A stretch of 64,000 nucleotides of DNA from Williamsia sp. 1138. Its GTDB lineage: Bacteria > Actinomycetota > Actinomycetes > Mycobacteriales > Mycobacteriaceae. Each line of letters begins with the position of its first letter. Position 1 is the first letter of the stretch. Both the position numbers and the translations under genes were made by a program. The stretch spans positions 1 to 64,000 of the forward strand of contig NZ_MJEJ02000048.1 in the NCBI RefSeq assembly GCF_002095435.2, written 5' to 3'. Below, piece after piece: positions 40,234 to 59,030 of the stretch. Below the pieces are notes generated by a model. The model was given only the letters and a program-made list of their open reading frames with translations, had not been told where the DNA came from and did no database searches.

Positions 40234-41973
40234 GTGACGAACGAGCAGAACGCCGACACCTGGATCACCGACTGGGAGTACAGCGAGCGGTACCCCGTGT
40301 ACACGCGGGCCAACGCAGGAGAGGTGCTGCCGGACCCGTCGAGCCCTCTCAATGTCAGCCTCGTGTGGAACAAGGGCCTCAACATCGGGTGGCGTGAGGG
40401 CTACGTCGAGCATCTCGGTACGCATCTGGCCTCCGAGCTCGACGAGGTGATGCCCGAAACGCTCGGCAACTTCGGTGGATACCACTTCACGAATTTCTCG
40501 GCGACCGAACTCAACGGCGCCCGCCTGCCCGGCATGACCGTTCCGGAGTGGAACCGGCTGTGGGTCGGCGACCATCCGGACCTCCCCGACTATGTGGAGA
40601 AGCCCGGCCACGCCAATGCCGAACTCACCGCACGACTGGCGGAGAAGAGTGCCTGGGCGCTGACCACCGACGAGTTCCCGGAAGCCGAGGAGACGAAGCG
40701 ACGGGCTGACCAGGCGCGGGCGAACCGACCCGATCTGAGCACCCTGAGTGATCAGCAATTGGTCGATCACGCCCGCTCATTCGTCCCCGACCTGATCTTC
40801 TGCTACGCCTATCATCCGGTCACCACCACACTCTCGACAGTCGGCCCTGCGGTCGCAGGCGCCCTGCTGGCCTCGATCGGCGAAGAGGACAAACTCGGTG
40901 ACCTGCTGAGCGGACTCGGTGGCGTCGACTCGGCCGCCCCGTCTTTCGCGCTGTGGGACATGGGCCGGCTGGTGGCGGGCTCCGAGGAGTTGACCTCGCT
41001 CTTCGACAACGGACTGGCCACCCTGCTCGACTCCGTGGATGCGAGCGGCTCTCCCGATGCCAAACAGTTCCGGACGGACTTCGACGACTTCCTCTTCAAG
41101 TACGGCTCGCGCGCGCCCAACGAATGGGACATCCGTTCGGACAGCTGGGAATCCAAGCCCGTCCTGGCCCTGCTCGCGATCAACGGGATGCGGCTGAGCC
41201 CCGACTCGTCGAACCCCGAACTGATCCGCCAGCGCAACGAGGCCAAGCGGGTCGCCCTGACCGAAGAACTCGCCGCCAAGATGCCCGACGAGGCGACCCG
41301 GCAGAGCTTCCTCGACGCCGCCAAGTCGATCACGCGGTTCATGCCGTGGCGCGAGCGCACCAAGACCGCCTGCGTCAAGGTGATGGGCGAGATGCGCACT
41401 GCGCTCTATGAATTGGGGCATCGAATGGTCGCTCGCGGCGTGATGGAAGATCACCACGACGTCACGATGCTGCTCGCCGATGAGCTCGATGCCTTCGCGG
41501 CCGACCCCGAGTCCTTCAAAGACACCATCGCGCAGCGGCGCGAGCAGTACCTCGCCCTCTTCGATCTCGAGCCGCCGTTCTTCCTCTTCGAGCCACTCCC
41601 GCTGTCGCAGTGGCCGAAGCGCACCGAGCACAAAGCGGAGATCGCTGTTCCCGGCGATTCGCTGGCCGGTGTCTCCGGCGCACCCGGGGTGAGCCGCGGC
41701 CGCGCTCGGATCCTGCACGATCCCTACGAGGCCGGACATCTGGAAGAGGGCGACATCATCATTGCGCCCCAGACAGATCCGGCCTGGACGCCCCTGTTCG
41801 TCTTTGCCGGCGGTGTCGTGGTCAATGTGGGCTCGACCATCACACACTCGTCGATCGTCTGCCGCGAGCTGGGAATCCCGTGCGCGGTCTCGGTGCAGGA
41901 CGCCACCGCCCGCATCCCCGACGGTGCGATGATCGAGGTCGACGGCAACACCGGAACTGTGACGGTGCTCTAG
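40234..41973 (+). CDS. PEP-synthase / rifampicin-phosphotransferase-like protein without ATP-grasp domain
   Basis: 579 residues. The segment ERYPVYTRANAGEVLPDPSSPL (17-39) begins the acceptor-binding domain that in rifampicin phosphotransferase follows the ATP-grasp domain, and FLFKYGSRAPNEWDIRSDSW (about 286-305) is its conserved core. The C-terminal mobile domain reads GAPGVSRGRARIL, APQTDPAWTPLF and GSTITHSSIVCRELGIP, with the phospho-accepting His538. No ATP-binding domain is present, so phosphate must come from a partner, as in phenylphosphate synthase (PpsA with PpsB). The substrate is probably an alcohol or phenol (inference). GTG 40234 has AGGAGG just upstream; TTG 40198 is less likely. 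It is the first gene of a four-gene coupled operon. Confidence 0.78.
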   Translation: MTNEQNADTWITDWEYSERYPVYTRANAGEVLPDPSSPLNVSLVWNKGLNIGWREGYVEHLGTHLASELDEVMPETLGNFGGYHFTNFSATELNGARLPGMTVPEWNRLWVGDHPDLPDYVEKPGHANAELTARLAEKSAWALTTDEFPEAEETKRRADQARANRPDLSTLSDQQLVDHARSFVPDLIFCYAYHPVTTTLSTVGPAVAGALLASIGEEDKLGDLLSGLGGVDSAAPSFALWDMGRLVAGSEELTSLFDNGLATLLDSVDASGSPDAKQFRTDFDDFLFKYGSRAPNEWDIRSDSWESKPVLALLAINGMRLSPDSSNPELIRQRNEAKRVALTEELAAKMPDEATRQSFLDAAKSITRFMPWRERTKTACVKVMGEMRTALYELGHRMVARGVMEDHHDVTMLLADELDAFAADPESFKDTIAQRREQYLALFDLEPPFFLFEPLPLSQWPKRTEHKAEIAVPGDSLAGVSGAPGVSRGRARILHDPYEAGHLEEGDIIIAPQTDPAWTPLFVFAGGVVVNVGSTITHSSIVCRELGIPCAVSVQDATARIPDGAMIEVDGNTGTVTVL

Positions 41974-42920
41974 TGGTCGAGATCGGTCTGACCCTGCCCC
42001 AACTCGGTGAACACGTCGACGCCGCGGCGATCCGCGCGTTCGCCACCTCTGCCGAAGAGCTCGGGTTCGCAAGCCTGTGGGTGCAGGAGCACCTGTTCTA
42101 CCCCGAGGCGAATGAATCGATCTACGGCGGACGGCACACCACCAGCGTGCACCCGGCATACCGTTCGGTACTCGGTGCCACCGAGCTGATGGCTTTCGTT
42201 GCCGCATGCACCGACAAGGCGATGATCGGCAGCAGCATCCTGGTCGCCGGCTACCACCGCCCGGTCGAACTGGCCCAACGTCTTTCGACGCTCGACGTAC
42301 TGTCCGGCGGTCGCCTGGTCGCGGGCCTCGGGGCCGGCTGGTCCGACGAGGAACACGGTCAGATGGACGTCGATCCCCGCACGCGTGGTCGACGGATGAG
42401 TGAACTGGTCACGGCCGTACAGGCATGCTGGGGGCCTGACCCGGTCGAGTTCTCGGGCGAGTTCTTCACCATCCCGCGGTCGGTCATCCGTCCCAAGCCC
42501 CTCCAGCAACCGCACCCACCACTACTGTCCGGATTACGGTCGACGGCCGGATTGGCCCGCACCGCAGCATTGTTCGACATCTGGAACCCCAGTAGCGGGA
42601 CCGCCGAGGCCTTGCAACAGCAACTCGACACGATGGCAGGTCTACGTGCCACCGACGCGGCGCCGGTCCGACTCTTCCTGCGCTCGTACCTGCAACGTCC
42701 CACCGATGCCGTCGGATCCGGCGGACACGGCATCGAGGGCGTTCGCGGCGACCTCCGTACCGCGGTCGAAGCCGGGGCCGAGCAATTCATCGTGGAGATA
42801 AACTTCTGGGACGAGATGCGATCCACCCAGGACTGGGCGGATGCGCCGGCCCGGCTGGCCTCGCTGCTCGAGACCGCCGAAGAACTCTCGACCGACATTT
42901 CGAAAGCGAGTGTGTTGTGA
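41973..42920 (+). CDS. LLM-class F420-type oxidoreductase
   Basis: 315 residues with the luciferase-like TIM barrel. VEIGLTLPQLGEHVD is the first strand. FASLWVQEHLFYP, IGSSILVAGYHRPVELAQRLSTLDVLSGGRLVAGLGAGW and a C-terminal barrel half follow the usual order. Members use reduced F420 or FMN; the family pattern favours F420 (inference). GTG 41973 overlaps the previous stop by one base (TAGTG). It may reduce or oxidise an intermediate of the alcohol pathway. It overlaps the next gene by four bases. Confidence 0.82.
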   Translation: MVEIGLTLPQLGEHVDAAAIRAFATSAEELGFASLWVQEHLFYPEANESIYGGRHTTSVHPAYRSVLGATELMAFVAACTDKAMIGSSILVAGYHRPVELAQRLSTLDVLSGGRLVAGLGAGWSDEEHGQMDVDPRTRGRRMSELVTAVQACWGPDPVEFSGEFFTIPRSVIRPKPLQQPHPPLLSGLRSTAGLARTAALFDIWNPSSGTAEALQQQLDTMAGLRATDAAPVRLFLRSYLQRPTDAVGSGGHGIEGVRGDLRTAVEAGAEQFIVEINFWDEMRSTQDWADAPARLASLLETAEELSTDISKASVL

Positions 42921-44023
42921 AGGCTGCAGTATTCGACGGGACCAGCCCGTCGTTGACGATCGAGAACATCCCACGGCCCGAGCCGCGGCGCGGCGAGATC
43001 CTGCTGAAGGTCACCGCCTGCGGCGTCTGCCACACCGACCTGCACGTGCTCAAGTCCGAGGTGAAGTTCCCGGTCCCGGCAGTACTCGGTCACGAGGTGT
43101 CCGGTGTCGTCGAGCAGACCGGAGAAGGCGTGGACAACGTCGCCGTCGGCGACCGCGTCGTCTGTAGCTTCATCATGCCGTGCGGCGATTGCAGGCACTG
43201 CGTCAGCGGCAAAGAGGATCTCTGCGAGAAGTTTTTCGCGCACAACAGACTGAACGGCACCCTGTACGACGGCGAAACGCGACTGGGCCGTGACGACGGC
43301 ACTCCGTTGGCGATGTACTCCATGGGTGGGCTGGCCGAATACTGTGTGGTGCCGGCATCCGATGCCTTCAAGGTTCCCGAGGGAGTCGGGCTCGGTGAGG
43401 TCTCGATCCTCGGTTGCAGCTCGTTCACTGCCCTCGGCGCGATCAACAACGCCGAACTCGTCCTGGGTGACCGGATCGCGGTCATCGCCGCCGGTGGGGT
43501 CGGATCGTCGATCGTGCAGTTCGCGGTCGCGTCGGGTGTCTCGCAGATCATCGCGATCGACATCGACGACGAGAAACTGAAAGCCGTTGCGGCACTGGGT
43601 GCCACCCACACCATCAACTCCCGCGCCACCGACGTGGTCGCCGAGGTGAAGGCCCTCACCGACGGCCACGGGGTCGACGTCGCTTTCGAGGCCCTCGGTA
43701 ACAAGCACACCTTCGCCACCGCGCTGGACATCCTCGACGACGGCGGTCGCGCTGTGGTGGTCGGTATCGCACCGGCAGGCAGCGTCGGCGAGATCGACCT
43801 GGCCCGCCTGGTCAGGCGCAAACTGGAGATCCACGGTTCCTACGGCGCCAAGGCCCGCACCGACATGCCCGCCTTGCTCCGTTTGGTCTCGGGCGGGATC
43901 GTCGAACCCGAACGGGTCATCACCCGCCGGTACACGCTGGATCAGGCCGATGAGGCCTACCAGGCGCTGGCCCGCGGTGAGATCATCGGGCGCGCGATCA
44001 TCGAGATGGCCCCATTAGAATGA
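42917..44023 (+). CDS. Zinc-dependent alcohol dehydrogenase
   Basis: 368 residues of the MDR family. The catalytic zinc ligands are Cys in TACGVCHTDLHVL (about 37), His in LGHEVSG (about 58) and Cys in ILGCSS. Structural-zinc cysteines lie in CGDCRHCVSGKEDLC (about 88-102). The NAD site is IAAGGVGSS (about 191) with an acidic residue after AIDID, so NAD+ is favoured over NADP+. The 25-residue insert after the structural zinc (FAHNRLNGTLYDGETRLGR) resembles aryl- or medium-chain alcohol dehydrogenases. Start and stop overlap the neighbours by four bases each. Confidence 0.9.
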   Translation: MKAAVFDGTSPSLTIENIPRPEPRRGEILLKVTACGVCHTDLHVLKSEVKFPVPAVLGHEVSGVVEQTGEGVDNVAVGDRVVCSFIMPCGDCRHCVSGKEDLCEKFFAHNRLNGTLYDGETRLGRDDGTPLAMYSMGGLAEYCVVPASDAFKVPEGVGLGEVSILGCSSFTALGAINNAELVLGDRIAVIAAGGVGSSIVQFAVASGVSQIIAIDIDDEKLKAVAALGATHTINSRATDVVAEVKALTDGHGVDVAFEALGNKHTFATALDILDDGGRAVVVGIAPAGSVGEIDLARLVRRKLEIHGSYGAKARTDMPALLRLVSGGIVEPERVITRRYTLDQADEAYQALARGEIIGRAIIEMAPLE

Positions 44024-44790
44024 CGGAGAGGGGCATTGTTGCTGTTGTCACCGGCGCAGCATCCGGTATCGGCCGGGCCGCCGTCGAGATCATTCTCGAG
44101 CGCGGCGGATCGGTCGTCGCCTTCGATACGACCCCGGAGTCGCTGGATTGGTTGGCGGGCAACGAAAACGCTGTGCCTTTTGTCGGCGATGTCACCTTTG
44201 ACGTCGACAACCGCGCTGCCATCGAACTCGCCGAAGAGTCGTTCGGCAGGCTCGATGCCCTGATCCTCAATGCGGGGGTACCGGCCTCCGGCTCGATCGA
44301 GACCCTCGACATGGACGTCTTCGACCGCTCGATCAACGTCAACCTGCGCGCCGTGGCGCTCGGTGTGCGCGAATCGATTCCGGCGTTCCGGCGCAACGGC
44401 GGCGGTTCGGTGGTCATCACCGCATCGGCGACTGCGATGGGCGGTGAACCCAATCGCTGGCCCTATGCCGCCGCCAAGGCAGGTGTGGTCAATCTGGCGC
44501 GATCGTTCGCCATCGATCTCGCGAACGACAAGATCCGGGTCAACACCGTCTGTCCCGGTCCGATCAGCACCGGCATGACCAAGCGCATCGAGGAGAACAC
44601 GCCGGAGCGGTATCAGTCGCTCGCGTCGATGGTCCCTTTACAACGGTGGGGCACCGCCCGTGAGGTCGGTGAGGTCATCGCCTTCCTGGCTTCACCGTTG
44701 GCATCGTTTGTCACCGGCGCATCGATACCCGTCGACGGCGGGGCGACCTGCGGCAGTGGGCAGACCATCCCGATCCCCGCACCCGCCTGA
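44020..44790 (+). CDS. Short-chain dehydrogenase/reductase
   Basis: 256 residues. VAVVTGAASGIGRAA is the Rossmann motif and LILNAG the N-A-G motif. Catalytic Ser lies in VITASATAMGG and Tyr-Lys in YAAAKAGVV. The C terminus PVDGGATCGSGQTIP is typical. AFDTTP at the end of strand 2 has an Asp, suggesting NAD(H). It ends the operon that starts with the PEP-synthase-like gene; the ATGA overlap shows coupling to the alcohol dehydrogenase. It probably acts on a hydroxy or keto intermediate. Confidence 0.88.
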   Translation: MTERGIVAVVTGAASGIGRAAVEIILERGGSVVAFDTTPESLDWLAGNENAVPFVGDVTFDVDNRAAIELAEESFGRLDALILNAGVPASGSIETLDMDVFDRSINVNLRAVALGVRESIPAFRRNGGGSVVITASATAMGGEPNRWPYAAAKAGVVNLARSFAIDLANDKIRVNTVCPGPISTGMTKRIEENTPERYQSLASMVPLQRWGTAREVGEVIAFLASPLASFVTGASIPVDGGATCGSGQTIPIPAPA

Positions 44791-44797
44791 CCGCAAA

Positions 44798-44868
44798 CGC
44801 TCCACCTTTACGAAGACGCGCCACATATTTGTGGAGCGTCTTCGCATTAGTGGAGCGCCTTCGTATTT
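44798..44868. repeat. Nested inverted and direct repeats forming alternative hairpins
   Basis: A main hairpin (CGAAGACGC at 44811-44819 plus CCACA at 44821-44825, pairing with TGTGG at 44830-44834 and GCGTCTTCG at 44836-44844) lies between the convergent SDR and alcohol dehydrogenase genes. Its right arm is part of two adjoining 19-base direct repeats (44831-44849 and 44850-44868). CGCTCCAC at 44798-44805 can pair with either GTGGAGCG. It is probably a bidirectional terminator with switching folds. Confidence 0.65.
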
Positions 44869-44884
44869 CTGGACAGTTTGTGGG

Positions 44885-45940
44885 CTAGCGGCGGGGGTCG
44901 ACGAGGACCTTGGCGTGTTCGCTGGTTCCCGAATCGAGCTCGCGGAACATCGCCACCAGATCGCCGAGCCCGATCGTGCCGGTGTGCAGCGACTTCACGT
45001 CGATGCGTCCGTCCGCGATCAGCCTCATGGTGGCGGCGAAGTCTTCGTGGGAGTACGCGAGCGATCCGATGACGGTCAGTTCCCGGCTCTGCCAATCCCC
45101 GTAGCTGACGGACGAATTGGTGCCCGGGTAACCGAGTAGCGCGAGGGTTCCACCGCGCCTGACCAGCTCGGCCGAGGGCTGCAGCAGAGCCGCGACCCCG
45201 GTGCATTCGAACAGCACATCCGCGCCGAGCCCGTTCGTGGCCTCGGCCAGCAGCCCGGGCAGGTCGGCAGGCTCGACCACATCGGTGAAGCCGAGCGCTG
45301 TCGCCGCCGCCCGGCGCGGAGCCGACGGTTCACTGATGATGAGTCTGCCCGCACCGCCGGTGCGAGCGTGTTGCGCGGTGAGCAGGCCGATCGGTCCCGC
45401 GCCTTGGACCACGACGGTCGACCCGAACCGGAGCTGAGCCCGCCGGACCGCGTGAAACGTCACCGTCGCCGGTTCCATCAACGCCGCTTCCTCATCGGAC
45501 AGCTCGTCGAGCACCGGAATCGCCCGGCGAGCAGACACTTTCAGCTTGGTCGCGAAGCCACCATGGGCCGGGGCGTCGTCGGTGATGCCGTTGGCCTCCG
45601 CAAACGCCAGGTCACAGTTCGACGCGTGACCCGCCCGGCACTGTGCGCAGACGCCGCACGCGGGTCCCACACCGGCGACCACGCGCTGGCCGACGCGCAC
45701 CGTCGTGACGTCGGTGCCGACCGCGGTCACGGTGCCCATCCATTCGTGGCCGAAGACCGCAGGAGGTAGGGCTGCCGACGCGTACCCGTGGGTGTCCGTG
45801 GCGCAGATGCCACAGAAGCCGATGTCGACCACCACACCGTCGGGCGCCGGCTCCGGCTCGGCCTCGACCACGGTTTCCGCGACTTCCGGCGCAACCATGT
45901 GAACGAACTTGTTCTCCACTGCAGATGTCATGCGAGTCAT
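44885..45940 (-). CDS. Zinc-dependent alcohol dehydrogenase, second copy
   Basis: About 351 residues of the MDR family, distinct from the copy at 42917. Catalytic zinc: GFCGICATDTHGY (about 42) and FGHEWMG (about 65). Structural zinc: CGVCAQCRAGHASNC (about 95-109). NAD region: VQGAGPIGLLTAQHAR with ISEPS after strand 2. It resembles threonine / sorbitol-type dehydrogenases with a polyol-like pocket, but the substrate is not clear. ATG 45940 shares a base with the stop of the preceding gene (TGATG); GTG 45943 and ATG 45931 are alternatives. Confidence 0.88.
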   Translation of the reverse strand: MTRMTSAVENKFVHMVAPEVAETVVEAEPEPAPDGVVVDIGFCGICATDTHGYASAALPPAVFGHEWMGTVTAVGTDVTTVRVGQRVVAGVGPACGVCAQCRAGHASNCDLAFAEANGITDDAPAHGGFATKLKVSARRAIPVLDELSDEEAALMEPATVTFHAVRRAQLRFGSTVVVQGAGPIGLLTAQHARTGGAGRLIISEPSAPRRAAATALGFTDVVEPADLPGLLAEATNGLGADVLFECTGVAALLQPSAELVRRGGTLALLGYPGTNSSVSYGDWQSRELTVIGSLAYSHEDFAATMRLIADGRIDVKSLHTGTIGLGDLVAMFRELDSGTSEHAKVLVDPRR

Positions 45941-46908
45941 CACTTTCCGGTCATGCGCCCGACGATGGGCGCGAATTGTTCGTACGCTCGGTCACCGATG
46001 GTGAAGTAGGAGAAGCCGAACTCTTCGCGACGTTGTTCGAGCTGCTCGCAGATGTCATCGACCGATCCTACGAGCGCGTGGGGAAAGGCCCGCAGCTCGT
46101 CGCGCGTGAATCCCGTGCGCTCGATCAGGGCTTCTTCGGTGACATCGGTCTGACCCTCGATGGCGACGAAGTAGGCACCCGTCTCGAGTTCGATGTCGGA
46201 CATCCGGTCTCCCGCGCCGGCGCGCACCCAGCCCAACTTCTTGTGTGTCTCTTCGACGGTCGAGGTGAGCACGCTGTCCGAGCCGAGCACGCCCGAACGG
46301 TTGTTGAAGTTGATGCTGACGATGTCGGCAGTTCTGCCTGCCAACGTCAGCACCCGCCGCGCTCCGCCGCCGATCATGATCGGGGGCGCGATCTCGGGGA
46401 CCGGCAATGGCGAGAAGCCGTGCGCCTTCACGAACGTGCCGTCGACCTTGATCTCGCTTCCGGACAGGTACTGGGTGATCAGCTCGACGGTTTCCTCGAG
46501 CCGGTCCACTCGCAGACCTGCCGACGGGAAGTCGATGCCCATCGCGTCGTATTCAGAGCCGAGCCAGCCTGCGCCAAGCCCGATCTCGATCCGGTCTGGT
46601 GCGAACATCGCCAGCGTCGCAGCCTCTTTCGCCAGCACCACCGGTTCGTGGTAGCTGGTGCAGAACATGCGGCAACCGACCTTCAACGTGTCGGTGACCT
46701 CGGCGGCGACGGCCATGCTCGTGATCGGCGCCATGGTCACCGGTCGGTGCCCGGTCGGGTCGAGTGCGGGGCCCGGCCCGATGTAGTGATCGGACACGTG
46801 CAGGGCTGAATAGCCCATGTCTTCGACCTTGTGCGCGACGTCGCGCCATTCCTGTCCGGTGTTTGCCCGATAGACCTGGGCAGCGAACCTGAAGGGTTTC
46901 TTAGTCAT
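45940..46908 (-). CDS. LLM-class F420-type oxidoreductase, second copy
   Basis: 322 residues. FRFAAQVYRANTGQEWRD begins the barrel. SALHVSDHYIGPGPALDPTG, TLKVGCRMFCTSYHEPVVLAKEAATLAMFAPDRIEIGLGAGW and APPIMIGGGARRVLTLAGRTADIV are the usual LLM segments, here of the F420 subgroup found in mycobacteria. The partner alcohol dehydrogenase is translationally coupled, so one may oxidise the alcohol and the other act on the product. It is not closely similar to the LLM protein at 41973. Confidence 0.82.
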   Translation of the reverse strand: MTKKPFRFAAQVYRANTGQEWRDVAHKVEDMGYSALHVSDHYIGPGPALDPTGHRPVTMAPITSMAVAAEVTDTLKVGCRMFCTSYHEPVVLAKEAATLAMFAPDRIEIGLGAGWLGSEYDAMGIDFPSAGLRVDRLEETVELITQYLSGSEIKVDGTFVKAHGFSPLPVPEIAPPIMIGGGARRVLTLAGRTADIVSINFNNRSGVLGSDSVLTSTVEETHKKLGWVRAGAGDRMSDIELETGAYFVAIEGQTDVTEEALIERTGFTRDELRAFPHALVGSVDDICEQLEQRREEFGFSYFTIGDRAYEQFAPIVGRMTGK

Positions 46909-46937
46909 GACTACAGTTTCTCATTTTTCGTCGATTT

Positions 46938-47780: not shown

Positions 47781-47810
47781 CCTTACTCCGATCTGGTTGC
47801 CGCCTGAGAC

Positions 47811-47850: not shown

Positions 47851-47870
47851 ATTTCAGGGGGTGCTGATTC

Positions 47871-48995
47871 CTACTTGAGCCACAGGGCCTTGAACTGGTC
47901 CTGGTAGTCCGCGACACCTACCCAGTAGCCCGTGTCGGCGTCGATGACGGCGGAGTCGATGTTCTCCGCGTTGAGCAGCTGAGTCGGGAGGAACGCCGCG
48001 TCTGCCGGAGCGAGGTCGTCGCCGTTGAACTGGCGGGCCAGCATGTCGATGACACGCCATCCGAGAATCTGGACCGGGAATCCAACCCACACGCTGTTGT
48101 CGCCGTCTTTGAGCGACTTCAGGTTGTCGGGAGTGGGGGTCTGACCCGCGAAGGTCACCTGATCCTGCAGTCCCGCGCCGCGCAGGGCCGCGTCGACGCC
48201 GAGCACGAGGTCTCCGAAGGAGAACACCGCGTAGTTGATGTTCGGATCACGCTGCAGCGTACTGACGACACTCTGCGGGGTCTTGGTACCGAGATCGGCG
48301 ACCTGCTGGTTGACGAGTTCGACCTTGCAATCGGGGCACTGAGCCTTCATCTGCGCGGTGAACGCATCGGTGAAGATGTTCAGGATCGGGTAGTCGGTGA
48401 TGGTGAAGATGGCGACGTTGGCCTTGCCCTCGGACTCGGCGACCACCTGGCTGGCGACCATCTTGCCCCACTCCTGCACCTGCCCGTCTCCGTCCAGCGA
48501 CGTCGAGATGACGCCGGGGATCGGCTCACCGGACACGCTGTCGGCGATCACCGGGATGCCGGCCGCCTTGGCGGATTCGATCTGCTTGGCGACCATCGAC
48601 AGCGGGGTGCCGGACATGTGGATGGCATCTGGTTTGAGCGCGATCGCCTGGTCGATGGCCTTGCCTGCAGCCTCGGCGTCGGTGCCCATGATGATGCGCT
48701 GGTAGCGCCAGCCCAGCAGATCGGCCGCCTGCTGGATGGCGTCGTTCTTGGCACTCGAGATCGGCTGAGGCGTCTCGATGCTGATGACGTACTTGCCGGC
48801 GACGGGAGCCTTGCTCAGTGGGGTGTCGAGGACGAGACCGGCAGGCGCCGCCTCGTACTGGTCTGCCACTGCCTGCGCGCCGGAGACGTCGGCCGCTTGG
48901 CCGCTTCCCCCGCCGTCGGAGCTGCTACACGCTGTCGCGAACATACTCGCGGCGACAACGGCGACGAACGCCTTTGTCCATCTGGTGGTCTTCAC
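47871..48995 (-). CDS. Ribose-type ABC importer substrate-binding lipoprotein (copy 2)
   Basis: 374 residues. The signal peptide ends in FATAC (lipobox, Cys23), followed by a Ser/Gly linker. A periplasmic-binding-protein type 1 (Peripla_BP_4) fold follows: YVISIETPQPISSAKNDAIQQAADLLGW, AIDQAIALKPDAIHMSGTPL, AAGIPVIADS and NIFTDAFTAQM. Such proteins bring sugars, polyols or small cyclic compounds to RbsA/RbsC-type complexes. It is closely similar along its length to the protein at 49059-50183, so the pair arose by tandem duplication. It is the last gene of the importer set. Confidence 0.9.
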   Translation of the reverse strand: MKTTRWTKAFVAVVAASMFATACSSSDGGGSGQAADVSGAQAVADQYEAAPAGLVLDTPLSKAPVAGKYVISIETPQPISSAKNDAIQQAADLLGWRYQRIIMGTDAEAAGKAIDQAIALKPDAIHMSGTPLSMVAKQIESAKAAGIPVIADSVSGEPIPGVISTSLDGDGQVQEWGKMVASQVVAESEGKANVAIFTITDYPILNIFTDAFTAQMKAQCPDCKVELVNQQVADLGTKTPQSVVSTLQRDPNINYAVFSFGDLVLGVDAALRGAGLQDQVTFAGQTPTPDNLKSLKDGDNSVWVGFPVQILGWRVIDMLARQFNGDDLAPADAAFLPTQLLNAENIDSAVIDADTGYWVGVADYQDQFKALWLK

Positions 48996-49058: not shown

Positions 49059-50183
49059 CTATTTGAGCCAGAGCTTCTCGAACTGCTCCTGGTAGTCGGC
49101 CACACCGATGTAGAAACCGGTGTCGGGATCGAGTACTGCGGAGTCGATGTTGTTCTTGTTCAACAACTGCGTCGGCAGGAAGGCGTCATCGGCGGGTTGC
49201 AGGGAGTCGCCGTTGAACTGACGCGCGAGCATGTCGAGAACACGCCAGCCGATGATCTGGATCGGGAACCCGACCCACACGCTGTCGTCACCGTCTTTGA
49301 GCGACTTCAGGTTCTCGGGCGACGGGCTCTGTCCGGCGAACCGGACCTGGTCCTGTAGGCCTGCTCCCCGCAACGCGGCGTCGACACCGAGGACGAGGTC
49401 GCCGAACGAGAAGACCGCCCAGTTGATGGAGGGGTCGCGCTGCAGCGTGCTGACCACACTCTGCGGGGTCTTGGTACCGAGGTCGGTGACCTGCTGATTG
49501 ACCATCTGGGTCTTGCACCCAGGGCACAGGGTCTCGAGCTGCGCCTTGAACGCATCGGTGAAGATGTTCAGGATCGAGTAATCGGTGATCGTGAAGATGG
49601 CGATGTTCGCGTTGCCGTCACTGTCCGCGACCACCTGACTCGCCACCATCTTGCCCCACTCCTGCACCTGGGCGATGCCATCGATGGAGGTGGAGATGAC
49701 ACCCGGGACCGGCTCGTCGCCCACACTGTCGGCGATGACAGGAATGCCTGCCGCCTTGGCGGATTCGATCTGCTTGCTCAGCATCGCGAGCGGGGTACCT
49801 GCGATGTGGATGGCGTCCGGCTTCAGGGCGATGGCCTGGTCCATGGCCTTCGGTGCGGCCTCGGCATCGGTGCCCATCAGGATGCGCTGGTAGCGCCAGC
49901 CCAGCACGTCCGCCGCCTGCGCGATGGCGTCGTCTTTCGCGACCGCGATCGGCTGGGGCGTCTCGATACTGATGACGAACTTGCCGGTGTCCGGGGCACG
50001 GCTCAGCGGAGTGTCGAGGATCAGGTTGGTCGGCGCGGCCTGGAACTGATCCGCGACAGCAACGGCCGCCGACACATCCGCGGGCTCGCTCGATCCGCCG
50101 CTGTCCGAACTGCTGCATGCAGTCGCCAAGAGACTCGCGGAGACAACGGCGACGATCGCCTTTGTCCAGCTGGTTTTTCTCAC
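49059..50183 (-). CDS. Ribose-type ABC importer substrate-binding lipoprotein (copy 1)
   Basis: 374 residues, the same length as copy 2 and alignable without obvious gaps: lipobox LLATAC, FVISIETPQPIAVAKDDAIAQ, AMDQAIALKPDAIHIAGTPL, CPGCKTQMVNQQ and GFYIGVADYQEQFEKLWLK. Differences cluster in the N-terminal linker and in parts that may line the ligand cleft (SIDGIAQ versus SLDGDGQ). Two Cys in CPGC may form a disulfide. It lies 47 bases after the permease gene, so it is probably the original binding protein. Confidence 0.9.
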   Translation of the reverse strand: MRKTSWTKAIVAVVSASLLATACSSSDSGGSSEPADVSAAVAVADQFQAAPTNLILDTPLSRAPDTGKFVISIETPQPIAVAKDDAIAQAADVLGWRYQRILMGTDAEAAPKAMDQAIALKPDAIHIAGTPLAMLSKQIESAKAAGIPVIADSVGDEPVPGVISTSIDGIAQVQEWGKMVASQVVADSDGNANIAIFTITDYSILNIFTDAFKAQLETLCPGCKTQMVNQQVTDLGTKTPQSVVSTLQRDPSINWAVFSFGDLVLGVDAALRGAGLQDQVRFAGQSPSPENLKSLKDGDDSVWVGFPIQIIGWRVLDMLARQFNGDSLQPADDAFLPTQLLNKNNIDSAVLDPDTGFYIGVADYQEQFEKLWLK

Positions 50184-50230
50184 AGGTGTCCTTTCCAGGG
50201 TGGCCGAGCGGCCGAGAAGTGAACGAAGAG

Positions 50231-51259: not shown

Positions 51260-51289
51260 GGTGTTCCTTTCGGACATCGCGGGGGAGGC

Positions 51290-52813: not shown

Positions 52814-52833
52814 TTGGGCCTACCTACGTGAGG

Positions 52834-52887
52834 TGAGTTACTTGAACCGTTGTTTTGTTACCTACGTCATACTGAACTATGTACATG
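52834..52887 (-). promoter_or_regulatory. Candidate GntR operator (site B) and CAAGT repeat upstream of the importer
   Basis: GAACTATGTACATG at 52874-52887 is the inverted form of CATGTACATAGTTC, matching sites A and C at 12 of 14 positions. TGAGTTACTTG at 52834-52844 (inverted CAAGTAACTCA) is related to the element at 55688-55702. Both lie 20-75 bases before the ATPase start on the minus strand, and about 190 bases before the divergent VOC gene. Confidence 0.5.
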
Positions 52888-53072
52888 GATAAGTCCAGCG
52901 TTCGGGCAAAGTCGTTACATTTGCCCCTCACGTGCACAATTGCCGCCATGAGATCGTCCAGCTCGCACGTTCTTGTTCAATCAACATCGGCCAGAGGCTG
53001 CCTGTATCTATAGTCACCAGAAAGTTAGCGAGTGCCGCTATGGCTGCTCGCCCGAACGTTGAGGGCTGAGTG

Positions 53073-53594
53073 ATGACCGAGTACACGCCAGGCGCGATCG
53101 TCCAGATCGCCTATATCGTCGACGACGTGCGAGCCGCAGCGCAAGACTTCGCATCGCGAACCGGCGCCGGTCCGTTTTTCGTGCGGCGCAACCCGGTGAC
53201 ATCAGCGCTGGGTCCGGACGGGACCGCGGGTTCTTTCGACCACTCGTCCGCCTACGGACAGTGGGGGCACACACAGATCGAACTCGTCGAGGTCCACAGC
53301 GCAGAGCCCGCCGCGTTCGCCCAGACGGCGTTGGTGAGCAACCACATTCATCATGTCGCGATCATGGTGTCGTCTTTCGGGGATCAACAGCGCCAGTTCG
53401 CCGACAGCGGGTGGCCGGCGGTACTGACCGCCACCACACCCAACGGCAACAATTTCGCCTTCCACGACGCCCGTGCGCAACTCGGGCACCTGGTGGAGAT
53501 CTACGAACCGCGCCCCACGATCCTCGCGCTCTACCGCAGGGTCGCCGACGCAGCCGTCGACTGGGATGGCCGCGACCCGGTCCGGGACATGTGA
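53073..53594 (+). CDS. VOC (glyoxalase-like) superfamily protein
   Basis: 173 residues. It starts VQIAYIVDDVRAAAQDFASRTGAGPFF, the first VOC module, then QWGHTQIELVEVH; the second module starts NHIHHVAIMVSSFGDQQRQF. His and Glu residues in HTQIELVE, HHVA and GHLVEIYEP are metal-ligand candidates. This group (Glyoxalase_4-like) includes epimerases and extradiol-like or lyase enzymes in steroid and terpene clusters. ATG 53073 follows GAGGG; GTG 53070 is possible. It is a single gene, divergent from the importer and convergent with the SnoaL-like gene. Confidence 0.78.
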   Translation: MTEYTPGAIVQIAYIVDDVRAAAQDFASRTGAGPFFVRRNPVTSALGPDGTAGSFDHSSAYGQWGHTQIELVEVHSAEPAAFAQTALVSNHIHHVAIMVSSFGDQQRQFADSGWPAVLTATTPNGNNFAFHDARAQLGHLVEIYEPRPTILALYRRVADAAVDWDGRDPVRDM

Positions 53595-53620
53595 GTCGTG
53601 CCAGACGAGGCCCCCCGCCC

Positions 53621-54109
53621 TCAGGCGTCTGCGAGGAGTGCGGCTGCGCGTTCGCGCGCCATGGTCAGGACCGCAGGGTTGCCGGAGTTCCACAGCACCG
53701 TCAGCTGCTTCTTGCAGATCCTCCACTCACCACCAACGCGCACAACGGAATCGGTGTAATACCCGCCGATGGTGAACATCGCATCACCCGCAGTGTTCGG
53801 CAGTACGTGCTCGGCGCGGACGTACGAGATCACCGTGCCGCGATCACCCTCGACTGTGATGTGCAGATTGGACAGGAAGTGCTGCGACGCCGTCAGCCCC
53901 GGGAACAGCATCCGCCCGCGTTGCACCCAGTCCTCGGCGCGGAACATTCCGCCGTTGCCTGCCCGATAGCTGGTGTAGTCGATCTCGATCTCGTCGGTGA
54001 ACACCGATCGGTACATGTCCCAGTCCCGCAGGTCGATACCCCGCGAGAAGCGCGACATCAGGTTGGTGATCTCCCGGTGCGCGGTGTTCAGTTCTGCTTC
54101 CGTGGCCAT
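53621..54109 (-). CDS. SnoaL-like NTF2-fold protein
   Basis: 162 residues with the NTF2 cone fold: an N-terminal helix TAHREITNLMSRFSRGIDLRDWDMYRSVFTDEIEIDYTSY, then TASQHFLSNLHITVEGDRGTVISYVRAEHVL and GGYYTDSVVRVGGEWRICKKQLTVLW. Tyr, Asp and His in these segments match the SnoaL_4 pattern of ring-hydroxylating-dioxygenase-associated or dehydratase/isomerase proteins (limonene-epoxide hydrolase and ketosteroid isomerase share this fold). The activity is not predictable. It lies 32 bases downstream of the aldehyde dehydrogenase, probably in the same operon. Confidence 0.78.
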   Translation of the reverse strand: MATEAELNTAHREITNLMSRFSRGIDLRDWDMYRSVFTDEIEIDYTSYRAGNGGMFRAEDWVQRGRMLFPGLTASQHFLSNLHITVEGDRGTVISYVRAEHVLPNTAGDAMFTIGGYYTDSVVRVGGEWRICKKQLTVLWNSGNPAVLTMARERAAALLADA

Positions 54110-54141
54110 GTCGGATCGCTTTCGTCGTGGGTGGGGGCGGA

Positions 54142-55575
54142 TCAGGCGGGTAGCTGAAGGGAGATCTTCTCGAAGTACTCATCCAGGCCGTCGGGACCGA
54201 GCTCTCGGCCGATCCCCGACTTCTTCATGCCCCCGAAGGGCGCCATCGCATTGAAACGACCGCCGTTGATGGAGACCTGCCCGGTACGAAGTCGGCGCGC
54301 TATCGCGATCGCCGCGGCGTCATCGGCGGCGAAGACACCACCGGACAGTCCATAGTCGGAATCGTTGGCGATGTCGATCGCCTCGTCGATGTCGCTGTAG
54401 GTGAGGACAGTGAGCACCGGTCCGAACACTTCGTCACGGGCGATCGCCGAGGTGTTGTCGACGCGGCTCACGACCGTCGGGCGAACGAAGAATCCGGCCT
54501 GCAACCGTTCATCGAGACCGGTGACCTCTCCCGGACCGCCGACCAGGAAGACTGCGTCTGCGGGGACGTCCGAAAGCATGTCGAGAACGGTCTGCTGCTG
54601 TTCACGCGACGCCATCGGACCGATGTCGATCGCCTCATCGAGCGGATCACCGACACTCTGGCCGCCGACCAGTTCGACGAGTTTGGCCTCGACCTGCTCG
54701 AGGTCCCCGATGGGCACGAGCAGCCGCGTCGTGGCGGCGCAGGTCTGTCCGTTGTTGACGTAGCAACCCCGGACAGCGGCGGTGACCGCTGCGTCGACAT
54801 CAGCGTCGGGCGCCACGATGAACGCGGACTTGCCCCCGAGCTCGAGGGTTACTTTCTTGATGTCGGCTGCAGCTACCTGTCCGACCCGAGCCCCTGCCGA
54901 GGTGGATCCGGTGAGGCTGACGAGATCGACGTCGGGGTGGCCCGCAAGGCGCTCGCCCACACGGCCGCCTGCGCCGGTCACGATGTTGAGGACGCCCGGG
55001 GGCAACCCGGCTTCTTCGGCGATCTCCGCGACCACGAACGCTGCGAGCGGCGCGACACTGCTCGGCTTCACGACGGACGTGCAGCCGGCGGCAATCGCAG
55101 GCGCGACCTTCGCGGCGAGTTGGTAGAGCGGGTAGTTCCAGGGCGTGATCGCCCCGACCACACCCACCCCGACCTTGAGGATCAGGGAGTTGCCCCGCCT
55201 CTCCTCGAGACTGGTGGTCTCCAGGATGTCGGCCATCGACCGGAAGATGGTCACCCCCAGCCCGACCTGGACGGAGCGGGAGCGGGCGATCGGCGTACCC
55301 ACCTCGCGGGCCATCATCTCGGCCAGTTCGGTTTCCCGTGCGACAAGACCGTCGGCGATCCGGCGCAACACAGTGATCCGATCAGCGACCGGCGACTGCG
55401 ACCATTCACCGAAGGCGGCCCTCGCCGCGGCGACCGCGTCGTCGACGTCGCTTTCCGTGCCCGCCGGAACACGTGCCATGAGCTGCCCGGTGGCCGCCTC
55501 GAGGACATCGATCGTGCCCTCACCTGCGGAAGGAACCCACTTGCCGCCGATGTAGAGCTCGTTCCGGTCTGCCAT
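54142..55575 (-). CDS. NAD(P)-dependent aldehyde dehydrogenase
   Basis: 477 residues. The ALDH motifs are complete: TPWNYPLYQLAAKVAPAIAAGC for the cofactor pocket, Glu in VTLELGGKSAF (about 246), the nucleophilic Cys in NNGQTCAATTR (about 277), and DEVFGPVLTVL with NDSDYGLSGGVF. It is closest to benzaldehyde/betaine-type dehydrogenases by impression. Its expected role is oxidation of the aldehyde made by the alcohol dehydrogenases into the acid activated by the CoA ligase. The start is ATG 55575. It is divergent from the PPDK-like operon, with site C between them. Confidence 0.93.
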   Translation of the reverse strand: MADRNELYIGGKWVPSAGEGTIDVLEAATGQLMARVPAGTESDVDDAVAAARAAFGEWSQSPVADRITVLRRIADGLVARETELAEMMAREVGTPIARSRSVQVGLGVTIFRSMADILETTSLEERRGNSLILKVGVGVVGAITPWNYPLYQLAAKVAPAIAAGCTSVVKPSSVAPLAAFVVAEIAEEAGLPPGVLNIVTGAGGRVGERLAGHPDVDLVSLTGSTSAGARVGQVAAADIKKVTLELGGKSAFIVAPDADVDAAVTAAVRGCYVNNGQTCAATTRLLVPIGDLEQVEAKLVELVGGQSVGDPLDEAIDIGPMASREQQQTVLDMLSDVPADAVFLVGGPGEVTGLDERLQAGFFVRPTVVSRVDNTSAIARDEVFGPVLTVLTYSDIDEAIDIANDSDYGLSGGVFAADDAAAIAIARRLRTGQVSINGGRFNAMAPFGGMKKSGIGRELGPDGLDEYFEKISLQLPA

Positions 55576-55687
55576 TGCCGCGCCTCACTGTTGTCCGATA
55601 TCTGGTCGAGCTACGCCGTCCCATGTCGCCTCCGCGGAGCCGAGTGGTGGCCGTCACAGAGAGCGTATCCGACTTTGAGGATGCACT

Positions 55688-55764
55688 GTCAAGTAACTTG
55701 ACCGCATCAATTCTGTACATAGTTTCGGGCTCTTTCTTGACATCCACTACTATTTGGGTAGGTT
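55688..55764 (+). promoter_or_regulatory. Promoter and candidate GntR operator (site C) of the PPDK-like operon
   Basis: GTCAAGTAACTTGAC (55688-55702) is a 15-base near-perfect palindrome. TCTGTACATAGTTT (55712-55725) matches site A at 13 of 14 bases. TTGACA (55737-55742) with TAGGTT (55759-55764), spacer 16, is the best sigma-A-type promoter in the region, giving a leader of about 90 bases before ATG 55861. The region also serves the divergent aldehyde dehydrogenase. Confidence 0.55.
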
Positions 55765-55860
55765 ATGAGCACCGTCACAGTCCCGGCCGAGGTGGTGTAT
55801 CAGTCACCGCCGACGCAGGTCCCCCGACCCCGGGGCACCGAGAACCAATCGAGGAGCACC

Positions 55861-56487
55861 ATGAACGACCTCGCGACCAATACGTCCACGCAGGCCACCG
55901 CATCGAGCGAGTTGGTCGGCCTCGTGGTCAAGGGGATGTTCCGCGGCCCGGTCTCACCCGAGCTGCAGCTGGTGATCGACGCCGGGGACGCCGTCGCCAA
56001 GGGCCCGATGGTGATGCCGACCCCCGCCGGGATCAGCGCGGCCGGCGCACTCGTCCGGTTGCCGGAGGGCAGCGACGAAGAGAAGGCGGTCAACGACTTC
56101 CTGCACGCCTTCCTCCCGGTCAACCGACGCCTGCGCGAGTTGTGCACCGCATGGCAGTGCCGGCCGGACGGCTCGGTGAACGATCACTCGGACGCCCAGT
56201 ACGACGCCCGGATCCGCGACCAACTCGACGACATCCATACCGACGTGTCGAAGATGCTCCGGCGCGCGGGCAAGCAGTCCGCAGACCTCCTCGCATATCG
56301 GGATCAGCTCAATGTCGCGCTCGAGCGCTTCGACGGTGGCGACACCGCGTCCCTCACCTCTCCGCTGACCGACGGCTACCACACCGTCTGGATGTGGCTG
56401 CACCAGCACGTGCTGATGATGCTCGGCGTCACCCGCGCCGAAGACGAGGCCCTCGAAGAGAAGCTCGTCGCTGGCAGCGCGGAATGA
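55861..56487 (+). CDS. Conserved-looking protein of unknown function coupled to the PPDK-like gene
   Basis: 208 residues, no signal peptide or membrane segment. The first half is mixed alpha/beta (LVGLVVKGMFRGPVSPELQLVI, ISAAGALVRLPEGSDEEKAV). The second half is helical, with NDFLHAFLPVNRRLRELCTAWQCR, NDHSDAQYDARIRDQLDDIH and DGYHTVWMWLHQHVLMMLG. Several His, Asp and Trp positions look constrained, but I recognise no domain. AGGAG precedes ATG 55861. It overlaps the PPDK-like gene by four bases (ATGA), so the two products are expected in fixed ratio, perhaps as a complex. It could be an adaptor, a phospho-acceptor or a substrate-binding subunit. Confidence 0.65.
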   Translation: MNDLATNTSTQATASSELVGLVVKGMFRGPVSPELQLVIDAGDAVAKGPMVMPTPAGISAAGALVRLPEGSDEEKAVNDFLHAFLPVNRRLRELCTAWQCRPDGSVNDHSDAQYDARIRDQLDDIHTDVSKMLRRAGKQSADLLAYRDQLNVALERFDGGDTASLTSPLTDGYHTVWMWLHQHVLMMLGVTRAEDEALEEKLVAGSAE

Positions 56488-59030
56488 CTCTGTCCGACAA
56501 CTCTGTTCATTCCTATACCCGAGCTGCGGTCCCCTATGGACAGGGCCGCGGCCGGGGACTCGGAGCCGACGTACTCGGTGTTCACGGTGTCGAGATGGAC
56601 AATCTCGTCGCTCTCGGTCTACCGGTGGTGCCGGGCCTGACCGTTCCGATCGGATCCGGCAGTGGCCTGGAGAACCGGGAAACCGCGAACACCGCGATCG
56701 ATCTGCTCGAAAAGCTGGCAGTCCGCGGCATCTGGCCTGCCACCCGCACCGAACGTCGCCCGATGTTGATGCACCTGCGCTGCAGCGCGCCGGTGCCGGT
56801 ATCGGCGCTGCCGCCCGCGATCTCGGTCATCGGTTTGTCGAACCGCAACATCGACGCCCTGGTCGAGGTCATCGGCCGCGACCGCGACATCTACGACTCC
56901 TGGGCCGCGAATCTGCGCTTCGTCGCCGAAGGCGCCCTGGGTGTCGACGTCGACGATCTCGATGACCTCGACGACGATCATCCCGACAGCCGCGCTCGGG
57001 TCCCCGCGTTGCTCGATCTCATCGAGGAAACCACCGGCGCGCCCTATCCCGCCGATCCTGCCGAACAACTCGGACTCGCGGCCAAGGCGATGCTGGCCCG
57101 GTGGGCCTCCCCCCGCGGCCAGCGTGCCCGCAAGGCGCTTTCTCTGCCCGACGATCTCGGCATCGCCCTCCACGTCCGGGCCCTGCGACTCGGGTCGTGG
57201 AACGAGTCGGGGTACGGCTCCGCGATCAGCCGCGACCTGGAGACGGGAAAGTATGCCCCGCACGGCGTCTTCCACCTCGGTGTCCGCCGCACCGACCCCA
57301 ACCCCGGCCCCGGCGAACCCCTCGGCCAGGTCCCCGGTGGCGTCACCATCCTCGATCAGATCTTCGCAACCCTCGAACCACATCTACGTGGCGTCGCGGA
57401 GGTCGAGTTCGAAGTCCGCGACCGGCAGCTCGCCCTGCTCAGCGCGGGCGCGCTCGAACATCCGGGCCCGCGTGCGGTCACCCACCTCGCGGTCGACCTG
57501 GCCAACGACCACTCGATCGAACGCAGCGAAGCAGTCCGGATGCTCGAGCCCGACCTGATGCAGGATCTACTGCACGCGCAGCTCAAGCTCAGTGGCAACG
57601 AGGAACTACTCGCCCAGGGCCTGCCCGCATCTCCGGGGGCTGCGATCGGCGAGATCGCCCTGTCGAGTGAACGCGCGCTCCAGTTGGCCGGTCAGGGCAA
57701 GGACGTCGTCCTCGTCGCCTCCGAGACCAGTCCCGCCGACGTACCCGCGCTGCTCGCCGCCACCGCGGTCGTCACGTCCAACGGCGGCCTGGCATCCCAT
57801 GCCGCTGTTGTCGCGCGTGGTGCAGGACGGCCGGCGGTCTGCGGTGCCACCTCCCTACGCATCGACCTGACCGCACGCACCGTGACCGCCAACGGTGTCA
57901 CCATGTCCGAGGGCGATGTCGTCTCGGTCAACGGCCGGACCGGCGACATCTACGCCGGAGCCGTCATGATCCGTCCAGCAGAACCATCACCCGAACTCGA
58001 GGTCCTCCTCGGCTGGGCCGATGAGATCCGTGAACTGGGCATCCGCACCAACGCCGACAACGCCGAGGACGCCGCCACCGCTTTCCGGCTCGGAGCCGAG
58101 GGAATCGGCTTGTGCCGCACAGAACATCAGTTCATGGGCGACCAACTGCCGCTCGTGCAGCGTCTCGTTCTCGCCGAGAGCGAGGCCGAGGAGATCGAGG
58201 CCATCGCAGCTCTGACCACCGCACAGCAATCGGACTTCACCGATCTGCTGCGAGTGGTCGGCAACCGACCGATCACGGTGCGATTGCTCGACGCACCCCT
58301 GCACGAGTTCCTGCCTACCGACGGCCACTATCGCGATGCCGCCCAGGCCGAACGTGCCGCGGCGACACACGAATCCAATCCGATGCTGGGCCTGCGCGGC
58401 GTCCGCTTCGCGATGGTGCAGCAACGGTTGTACCCCGCGCAGGCCGAAGCGCTGTTCCGTGCCTGGGTGACGGTCAACGCAGAGGGGCTCTCGCCGGTAC
58501 TCGAGGTCATGATCCCCCTGGTCTCGCTGCCCGGCGAGCTCAGCAAAGCCATCACCCAGGTGGACAGCGCAGCCGCCGCCGTCGCAACCGACACCGGCGT
58601 CAAAGTCCCCTACCTCGTGGGCAGCATGGTCGAGACCCCGCGCGCAGCGCTGCTCGCCGCCTCGCTGACCGCCGACGCCGAGTTCCTGTCGTTCGGCACC
58701 AACGACCTGACCCAGTTGACCTACGGATTCTCGCGCGATGACGTCGAGAAGACCATGCTCGCCCACTATCTGGACCACGGCCTGCTGACCGACAGCCCGT
58801 TCGCCGTACTCGACCGCGATGGCGTGGGCGCACTGGTCGCGATGGCGGCGGAGCGGGCTCGTGGGTCACGGCCGACGGTGAAACTCGGCGTCTGTGGAGA
58901 ACATGGCGGCGATCCGGAGTCGATCTCGTTCCTGAACTCCATCGGCCTCGACTACGTCTCGTGCTCACCCCGCCGCGTACCTGTCGCACGGCTTGCTGCA
59001 GCACACGCGACCCTGGAAAGTGGCCGATGA
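56484..59030 (+). CDS. PPDK-like phosphohistidine protein with eroded ATP-grasp site
   Basis: 848 residues aligned end to end with pyruvate phosphate dikinase (about 874). The N-terminal third keeps the outline (GVHGVEMDNLVALGLPVVPG) but the ATP-site Lys of GGKG is His34, and the Q-x-R of the MLQTR motif is lost (LLSAG, about 318-322). The Arg in LRCSAP and Glu in EVEF remain. The mobile domain is intact: GGLASHAAVVARG with His439. So is the PEP/pyruvate barrel: GLCRTEH (Arg545), PITVRLLDAPLHEF, NPMLGLRG (Arg638), GSMVETPRAAL (Glu717), FGTNDLTQ (Asn740) and GVCGEHGG (Cys804). It can probably take phosphate from PEP but not use ATP normally. Start and stop overlap the neighbours (ATGA). Confidence 0.8.
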   Translation: MTLSDNSVHSYTRAAVPYGQGRGRGLGADVLGVHGVEMDNLVALGLPVVPGLTVPIGSGSGLENRETANTAIDLLEKLAVRGIWPATRTERRPMLMHLRCSAPVPVSALPPAISVIGLSNRNIDALVEVIGRDRDIYDSWAANLRFVAEGALGVDVDDLDDLDDDHPDSRARVPALLDLIEETTGAPYPADPAEQLGLAAKAMLARWASPRGQRARKALSLPDDLGIALHVRALRLGSWNESGYGSAISRDLETGKYAPHGVFHLGVRRTDPNPGPGEPLGQVPGGVTILDQIFATLEPHLRGVAEVEFEVRDRQLALLSAGALEHPGPRAVTHLAVDLANDHSIERSEAVRMLEPDLMQDLLHAQLKLSGNEELLAQGLPASPGAAIGEIALSSERALQLAGQGKDVVLVASETSPADVPALLAATAVVTSNGGLASHAAVVARGAGRPAVCGATSLRIDLTARTVTANGVTMSEGDVVSVNGRTGDIYAGAVMIRPAEPSPELEVLLGWADEIRELGIRTNADNAEDAATAFRLGAEGIGLCRTEHQFMGDQLPLVQRLVLAESEAEEIEAIAALTTAQQSDFTDLLRVVGNRPITVRLLDAPLHEFLPTDGHYRDAAQAERAAATHESNPMLGLRGVRFAMVQQRLYPAQAEALFRAWVTVNAEGLSPVLEVMIPLVSLPGELSKAITQVDSAAAAVATDTGVKVPYLVGSMVETPRAALLAASLTADAEFLSFGTNDLTQLTYGFSRDDVEKTMLAHYLDHGLLTDSPFAVLDRDGVGALVAMAAERARGSRPTVKLGVCGEHGGDPESISFLNSIGLDYVSCSPRRVPVARLAAAHATLESGR

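Follow-up and report, generated by a model that had tools for sequence, protein, structure and literature searches.

The window analyzed here is a stretch of 64,000 nucleotides from the soil actinobacterium Williamsia sp. 1138 (contig NZ_MJEJ02000048.1), and the two operons described below, with their palindromes, lie on its plus strand. The acceptor protein P0001 (579 aa; 40234..41973) consists of a small-molecule-binding acceptor domain followed by a C-terminal phospho-His swivel domain. A Pfam scan of P0001 returned the PEP-utilizers phospho-His domain (residues 503-574; 41740..41955) as its sole match, with no PPDK_N ATP-grasp; residues 280-579 matched rifampin phosphotransferase (5fbs; E 8e-34), and His538 (codon 41845-41847) is invariant in an alignment of 20 acceptor proteins. 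All three results agree with a preliminary description, made from the DNA letters, that read P0001 as an acceptor domain plus a His538 domain without ATP-grasp, and its ORF coordinates were confirmed. Acceptor and swivel His without ATP-grasp is the plan of one subunit of the two-component small-molecule dikinases. The P0001 stop codon is overlapped by the ORF of an LLM-class (F420/flavin) oxidoreductase (PF00296; 41973..42920), which is followed in the operon by a zinc alcohol dehydrogenase (42917..44023) and a short-chain dehydrogenase (44020..44790). A paralog of P0001 (574 aa) is encoded at C34:75406-77130.

The homolog of pyruvate phosphate dikinase (PPDK) designated P0002 (848 aa; 56484..59030) lies in an operon whose first gene, U208 (208 aa; 55861..56487), overlaps the P0002 start by 4 bases and whose third gene, encoding an acyl-CoA dehydrogenase (59027..60097), begins with another 4-base overlap, an order that is the same in genome G003. 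The preliminary description had placed alcohol-oxidizing enzymes in both operons, which holds for the P0001 operon but not for this one. P0002, whose ORF coordinates were likewise confirmed, matches PPDK over its whole length (E about 1e-154 with plant PPDK) and comprises a degenerate, dead-looking ATP-grasp region (residues 1-340; 56484..57503), a phospho-His domain (57699..57944), and a PEP-binding barrel (58002..59009). Its score with the PPDK equivalog model TIGR01828 was 677 bits, under the cut-off of 843, and Pfam PPDK_N gave no match in P0002. With the VadK family NF004531 it scored 169 bits against a threshold of 456, and having a barrel and no ATP residues it does not belong to that family; like VadK, it has an adjoining gene of the U208/Rv1126c type (55861-56487). 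Nor is P0002 a member of the enzyme I family PTS_I_fam (111 bits versus 341.7), and Pfam did not report the PTS N-terminal (HPr-binding) domain for it.

Residues of P0002 were compared by alignment to canonical PPDKs, using C. symbiosum numbering. In the ATP-grasp region, Lys22 is replaced by His34, Gln335 by Ser320, Arg337 by Gly322, and Asp321 by Glu306, bearing out the preliminary description of a protein that has lost the GGKG lysine and the Q-x-R motif. Arg92 (Arg99 in P0002) and Glu323 (Glu308) survive, which we count against the interpretation developed below. His439 (codon 57798-57800) corresponds to PPDK His455, and the PEP-barrel residues are all kept: R561 (R545 in P0002), R617 (R600), R665 (R638), E745 (E717), N768 (N740), and C831 (C804), so that the barrel and His439 were rightly called intact at the outset, Arg638 being the R665 equivalent. 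The lost residues together with the sub-cut-off TIGR01828 score rule out an ordinary PPDK. Identity of P0002 to canonical PPDK is 24-26% in the N-domain and about 50% in the barrel, whereas two canonical PPDKs share about 70% in both, indicating that the ATP-grasp diverged asymmetrically. Between P0002 and its homolog in G099, a member of the same clade, identity is about 53% in the ATP-grasp and about 67% in the barrel; the ATP-grasp is therefore still conserved inside the clade and has been retained as a fold.

The two operons were also said to share a candidate operator, and the palindrome is indeed present before both: CAAGTTACTCG (40098..40108) upstream of P0001, with one mismatch to CAAGTnACTTG, and CAAGTAACTTG (55690..55700), a perfect match within GTCAAGTAACTTGAC, upstream of U208. 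A perfect CAAGTnACTTG precedes the P0001 paralog at L018:13248, and among the other genomes checked the perfect palindrome was found in the paralog promoters of G002, G003, G004, and G043; in G043 and G099, neither P0001 nor U208 is preceded by it. Two matches per 64 kb are unexceptional, being reached in 11 of 100 shuffles, and we take the apparently shared operator as supportive but statistically weak.

U208, which the preliminary description had overlooked, is conserved and necessarily part of any mechanism. Its closest named relative is in W. soli (95% identical), followed by those of other Williamsia, and no Pfam family covers it, its helical part included. An AlphaFold model (pLDDT 93.6, pTM 0.87) shows a reduced winged-helix N-terminal part and an up-down four-helix bundle (helices 72-99, 112-137, 141-158, and 173-188). 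Fifteen residues are invariant: F84, N88, W98, Q99, N107, H109, Y114, D115, G160, P168, Y173, H174, W177, H181, and R192. Those of late helix 1, the following loop and early helix 2, and early helix 4 (N88, W98, Q99, N107, H109, Y114, D115, Y173, H174, W177, and H181) would, judging from the order of secondary structure, sit at one pole of the bundle, and this clustering looks more like an active or phosphoacceptor site than plain scaffolding. Searching the PDB with the U208 fold returned only generic helical bundles (talin, FAT, and designed bundles), the best Z of 10.3 falling inside the range stated for chance helical-bundle matches. A relation to FCD/GntR proteins was rejected, weak matches with a donor-U208 fusion model being absent from fold searches with U208 itself, as was an HPr-like carrier, since the modeled combination of reduced winged helix and four-helix bundle is not the HPr fold.

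To place U208 in genomic context, genome contigs were scanned with its alignment; this gave 567 relatives, of which 80 loci were kept. In 57 of 66 loci, U208 is either fused to a phosphodonor or no more than 300 bases from one on the same strand, and the donors come in two main forms. In the PEP-type form, U208 adjoins a full-length PPDK-like protein with a degenerate ATP-grasp and an intact barrel; such loci occur in Williamsia, Rhodococcoides, Gordonia, Dietzia, Frankia, Actinomadura, Aeromicrobium, and Nanopelagicales. In the ATP-type form, U208 stands beside or near a PPDK half consisting of ATP-grasp and His domains with no barrel; the two genes are in tandem in Mycobacterium and fused into a single protein in Nocardia, and in the survey of the order the short donors adjoining U208 exceed 800 bits with the VadK-type family NF004531. 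Residues were tallied in 35 donors of each form, a sample that has close relatives in it and whose members do not represent independent events. The PEP-type donors have K22 in none of the 21 that are alignable there, Q335 in none, and R337 in one, with His455 and the tabulated PEP-contact barrel residues kept in all 35; the ATP-type donors keep K22, R92, E323, Q335, R337, and the His without exception and lack the barrel. Each donor form keeps one of two energy inputs, and the phospho-His domain and U208 stay in both. The PEP-type donors group in a single clade of strong support (SH-aLRT 100), set on a long branch (2.05), so the ATP residues were probably lost in a single event.

The acceptor is also found with these genes. 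Clusters of all three genes occur in Nanopelagicales, Gordonia, and Nocardioides: Nanopelagicales metagenome-assembled genomes (MAGs) L098, L100, L104, L106, L109, and L112 carry PEP-type acceptor-acceptor-U208-P0002 clusters of about 10-12 kb, and Nocardioides marmoriginsengisoli (L145) encodes a short-chain dehydrogenase-acceptor-His protein, the plan of Rv2047c, with U208 and an ATP-type donor. Several records in this set have titles that look wrong: L085, "Kitasatospora arboriphila," matches Williamsia muralis loci; the "Bifidobacterium breve" MAGs L091, L100, L108, and L109 resemble Nanopelagicales loci; and L113, "Streptomyces violaceus," contains a frame-broken PEP-type donor.

Further variants were seen. 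Acidimicrobiia MAGs place U208 in divergent orientation to a phospho-His domain that stands by itself and has about 83-118 residues (L151:768-1118, L124:2054-2410, L117:9551-10387, and L116:9271-9522, minus strand), with a protein of ~370 residues beside the U208 pair in L117 and L116 and an alpha/beta hydrolase after U208 in L117, L124, and L151; this arrangement is possibly the system reduced to its carrier. Three loci (L203:4624-7176, L204:5594-8122, and L205:3326-5809) pair U208 with a protein of ~830-850 aa in which ATP-grasp and His domains are intact and a different C-terminal part replaces the barrel, and a small, separate His-domain-like protein is nearby. Another donor type is represented by the PEP-synthase-like swivel-domain proteins of ~140-480 aa that adjoin U208 at L195:5686-6834 and L198:6096-7298 and also in L193, L194, L196, and L199. 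The U208-like genes of L185-L192, L197, and L200 have no recognizable donor within 5 kb, and we count those of L185-L192 against the relay proposed below; a neighboring gene of ~96-131 aa is common to L188, L190, L192, L195, and L198. Mycobacterial open frames of ~710 residues match the P0001 acceptor domain only (model positions 4-458) and not the His domain, giving acceptor domains without a carrier at G154:C122:20364-21605, G163:C21:62717-63964, and G149:C137:43166-44416.

U208 is present in 53 of 249 Mycobacteriales genomes that are at least 90% complete, and every one of the 17 that encode a full-span acceptor belongs to these 53 (Fisher p 4e-13, without correction for phylogeny). An acceptor-like match was present in 43 of 44 U208-bearing genomes, including every Mycobacterium tested and the reduced M. 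uberis. Comparison of distance matrices for the three proteins, U208, donor, and acceptor, gave correlations with r of 0.82-0.94, partly through shared descent, which inflates both these correlations and the co-occurrence. A set of 121 relatives was searched for close orthologs of P0002 and of P0001 or its paralog: each of the nine Williamsia genomes has both, and so do G043 (Rhodococcoides), unlike its sister species G013, and G099, from another family. Co-occurrence of the two genes, on which the preliminary description had staked its proposal, is thus present and includes a contrast between sister species.

A stand-alone ATP-grasp partner of the PpsB or HpeI kind, the other half of a two-component small-molecule dikinase and the finding that would have undercut the preliminary description, was searched for with PF01326 and found neither in the Williamsia sp. 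1138 genome nor in the nine Williamsia genomes nor in ten further ones. The acceptor-bearing genomes G043, G122 (Rhodococcus sp. Leaf247), G125 (R. fascians NBRC 12155), and G198 contain no PF01326 protein at all, meaning no PPDK-, PpsA-, RPH-, or HpeI-type ATP-grasp visible to that model, so in these four the phosphate of the acceptor must come from elsewhere, and PEP via the P0002 ortholog is the best candidate source. The only PEP-barrel proteins in G043, G122, and G125 are enzyme I and that ortholog. Three other genomes, G128 (Frankia), G129, and G130, carry acceptors, a P0002 ortholog, and a canonical PPDK, and gave no match to an EI-sized PEP-barrel protein (completeness of these three is unstated). 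The P0002 ortholog with U208 is the sole candidate phosphodonor common to all seven genomes.

Each component has known relatives. P0002 resembles PPDK in domain order, phospho-His, and PEP-barrel residues; it differs in that ATP-grasp residues are lost throughout its clade and U208 is a constant partner. VadK (Rv1127c) of Mycobacterium tuberculosis autophosphorylates on His422 with ATP and Mg, its solubility is improved by co-expression of its operon partner Rv1126c, which 2 M NaCl washes off, and the same paper mentions, in the portions searched, full-length PPDKs lacking kinase motifs without interpreting them (PMC13400623). By position, Rv1126c is the U208 counterpart. VadK and P0002 are alike as PPDK-derived phospho-His donors with an operonic U208-like partner, and mycobacterial genomes hold a separate Rv2047c-like acceptor-plus-His protein; VadK is driven by ATP and has no PEP barrel, whereas P0002 is its mirror image. 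In a transposon screen, rv1127c and rv2047c were both essential or growth-defective with mycobactin and not with heme (PMC7058343). HpeHI contains an acceptor-swivel protein without ATP-grasp that phosphorylates phenols through its His, and HpeH alone moves phosphate between phenols, the His being required (PMC12167813). P0001 shares the acceptor and C-terminal swivel His plan of HpeH and PpsA, without ATP-grasp; unlike in HpeHI, CreHI, and PpsAB (phenylphosphate synthase), a second, putatively PEP-fed phospho-His protein and U208 take the place of the ATP-grasp subunit. The acceptor and swivel domains of P0001 are likewise homologous to the C-terminal part of rifampin phosphotransferase (RPH) and of PigC/RedH, which are single-chain and ATP-driven. 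With the sugar PTS the system has in common a PEP barrel that charges a His domain, RHG-type phosphatases nearby, and a wiring of one donor to two or more acceptors; it differs in its PPDK-derived donor, the lack of an HPr-like carrier, and acceptors that are soluble RPH/HpeH-type proteins rather than EII transporters. We found no relevant description of a PEP-driven alcohol kinase in the literature, and the three-part assembly, the reciprocity of PEP and ATP, and U208 as constant partner were absent from the literature found. The parts are of known kinds; the novelty is in their combination, a relay like that of the PTS for an acceptor like those of two-component dikinases.

Taken together, the domain anatomy, the residues lost and retained, the conserved linkage, the fusion, the co-occurrence, and the four genomes without PPDK/RPH-type ATP-grasp, all directly observed, lead us to favor, with moderate confidence, a PEP-driven phosphohistidine relay from donor to acceptor that includes P0002, U208, and P0001. 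PEP would phosphorylate His439 of P0002 at the PPDK-type barrel, as in PTS enzyme I, the ATP site being presumably dead and kept for its fold alone. The phosphoryl group would then move, through or helped by U208, to His538 in P0001 or to the same His in the paralog; from there the acceptor swivel domain would deliver it to a hydroxyl of the small molecule that the acceptor domain binds. We infer the direction and route of transfer, the part of U208 as carrier or docking factor, and the class of substrate from these genomic observations; that U208 itself carries the phosphate covalently is put forward with less assurance than the relay as a whole. The preliminary description had proposed a two-protein chain from PEP through His439 and His538 to an alcohol or phenol; it withstood the tests of the absent partner, the residue loss, and the co-occurrence and is partly supported: its omission of U208 and its operon argument have to be corrected, its substrate is a guess, and enzyme I may be an alternative donor in several genomes. 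Related bacteria would run the same kit on ATP through a VadK-type donor, which predicts a phosphate route from Rv1127c to Rv1126c to Rv2047c.

Phosphorylation would start the breakdown of the small molecule by the surrounding catabolic genes. Neighboring genes encode a ribose-type ABC importer, an E1/E2 2-oxoacid dehydrogenase, thiolase-DUF35, acyl-CoA dehydrogenases, and a Rieske oxygenase; they suggest uptake by the ABC transporter, then degradation by way of CoA thioesters and a 2-oxoacid dehydrogenase step, but point to no single compound, and an alcohol or phenol is a guess. Two tandem, closely similar ABC substrate-binding proteins (47871-48995 and 49059-50183) lie beside the ribose-type permease and ATPase. 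Three RHG-type histidine phosphatases are encoded in the same island (L018:4222-4821, 4818-5444, and 17068-17775), and relatives of the third are found beside the Nanopelagicales systems. SixA is a member of the RHG histidine-phosphatase superfamily. As a phosphohistidine phosphatase, it dephosphorylates the carrier NPr (PMC7948535), and the island enzymes may, like SixA, act on phosphohistidine, or else on the phosphorylated substrate.

An alternative that we consider unlikely gives P0002 and U208 a regulatory role: they would be a PEP-fed relative of VadK, a histidine kinase that senses PEP and modifies metabolic enzymes, and the acceptors would be charged otherwise. VadK is presented as a regulatory kinase of the methylcitrate cycle: its authors pulled down PrpC and PrpD, not Rv2047c, and propose regulation of that cycle's enzymes, and the text searched names no phosphoacceptor (PMC13400623). 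The pull-down and the regulatory proposal count against the relay, as do the position of P0001 and P0002 14.5 kb apart in separate operons and the lack of an informative relative in the U208 fold search. The separate operons, the winged-helix-like N-terminal part of U208, and U208-donor genomes without a full-span acceptor, such as G245, favor the regulatory alternative. A purely regulatory role leaves G043, G122, G125, and G198 without a PPDK/RPH-type ATP-grasp to charge their acceptors, and it sits poorly with U208 in every full-span acceptor genome and with the three-gene clusters of Nanopelagicales, Gordonia, and Nocardioides. Charging of the acceptors by the general PTS, through enzyme I and possibly HPr, with P0002 unrelated, we regard as improbable. 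EI-sized PEP-barrel proteins are present in the Williamsia sp. 1138 genome and in most of the examined genomes with PEP-type donors, including G043, G122, and G125, and B. subtilis EI phosphorylates rifampicin in vitro (PMC13099321); however, G013 has EI yet neither acceptor nor donor, acceptors occur in G128, G129, and G130, which gave no EI-sized match (completeness unstated), and linkage to U208 and the donor is left unexplained.

Still less credible is an HpeH-like P0001 that borrows its ATP-grasp in trans from PpsA or from the fused 792-aa ATP-grasp/acceptor/His dikinase of contig C40. Split dikinases exist as HpeH/HpeI and PpsA/PpsB (PMC12167813), and the C40-type fusion is present in all nine Williamsia genomes, but this protein has acceptor-like and His domains of its own, PpsA occurs in only two of the nine, and general sharing of either dikinase is ruled out by the four acceptor-bearing genomes without any PF01326 protein. 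The C40 locus (L019:7100-13347), which also encodes an LLM oxidoreductase, a 371-aa protein, and a CoA ligase, is a one-chain counterpart of the split system of the island. Reverse flux, with the acceptor taking phosphate off a phosphorylated substrate and P0002 making PEP from pyruvate, is conceivable given that the PPDK barrel reaction is reversible, but it is the remotest reading, for ordinary alcohol and phenol phosphate esters lie far below PEP in transfer potential and nothing points to the special substrate that would be needed.

Returning to the PEP-driven relay, a bolder and more tentative reading, to which we give somewhat less than an even chance, is that it adds a third member to the PEP-driven phosphotransfer systems, next to the sugar PTS and PTS-Ntr, with a PPDK-derived enzyme I analogue, a new four-helix phosphocarrier family (U208, with its invariant His109, His174, and His181), several RPH/HpeH-type acceptor kinases for non-sugar small molecules, and VadK-Rv1126c-Rv2047c as its ATP-driven version. 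If the relay is real, bacteria of several actinobacterial orders would possess a PTS-like relay built from different modules, whose clients are soluble small-molecule kinases rather than sugar transporters, and reciprocal losses of an input domain would have let the same machine run on either PEP or ATP. The uncharacterized U208/Rv1126c family would gain a biochemical context, and the question of the phosphoacceptor of the virulence-associated VadK would gain two named candidates, Rv1126c and Rv2047c.
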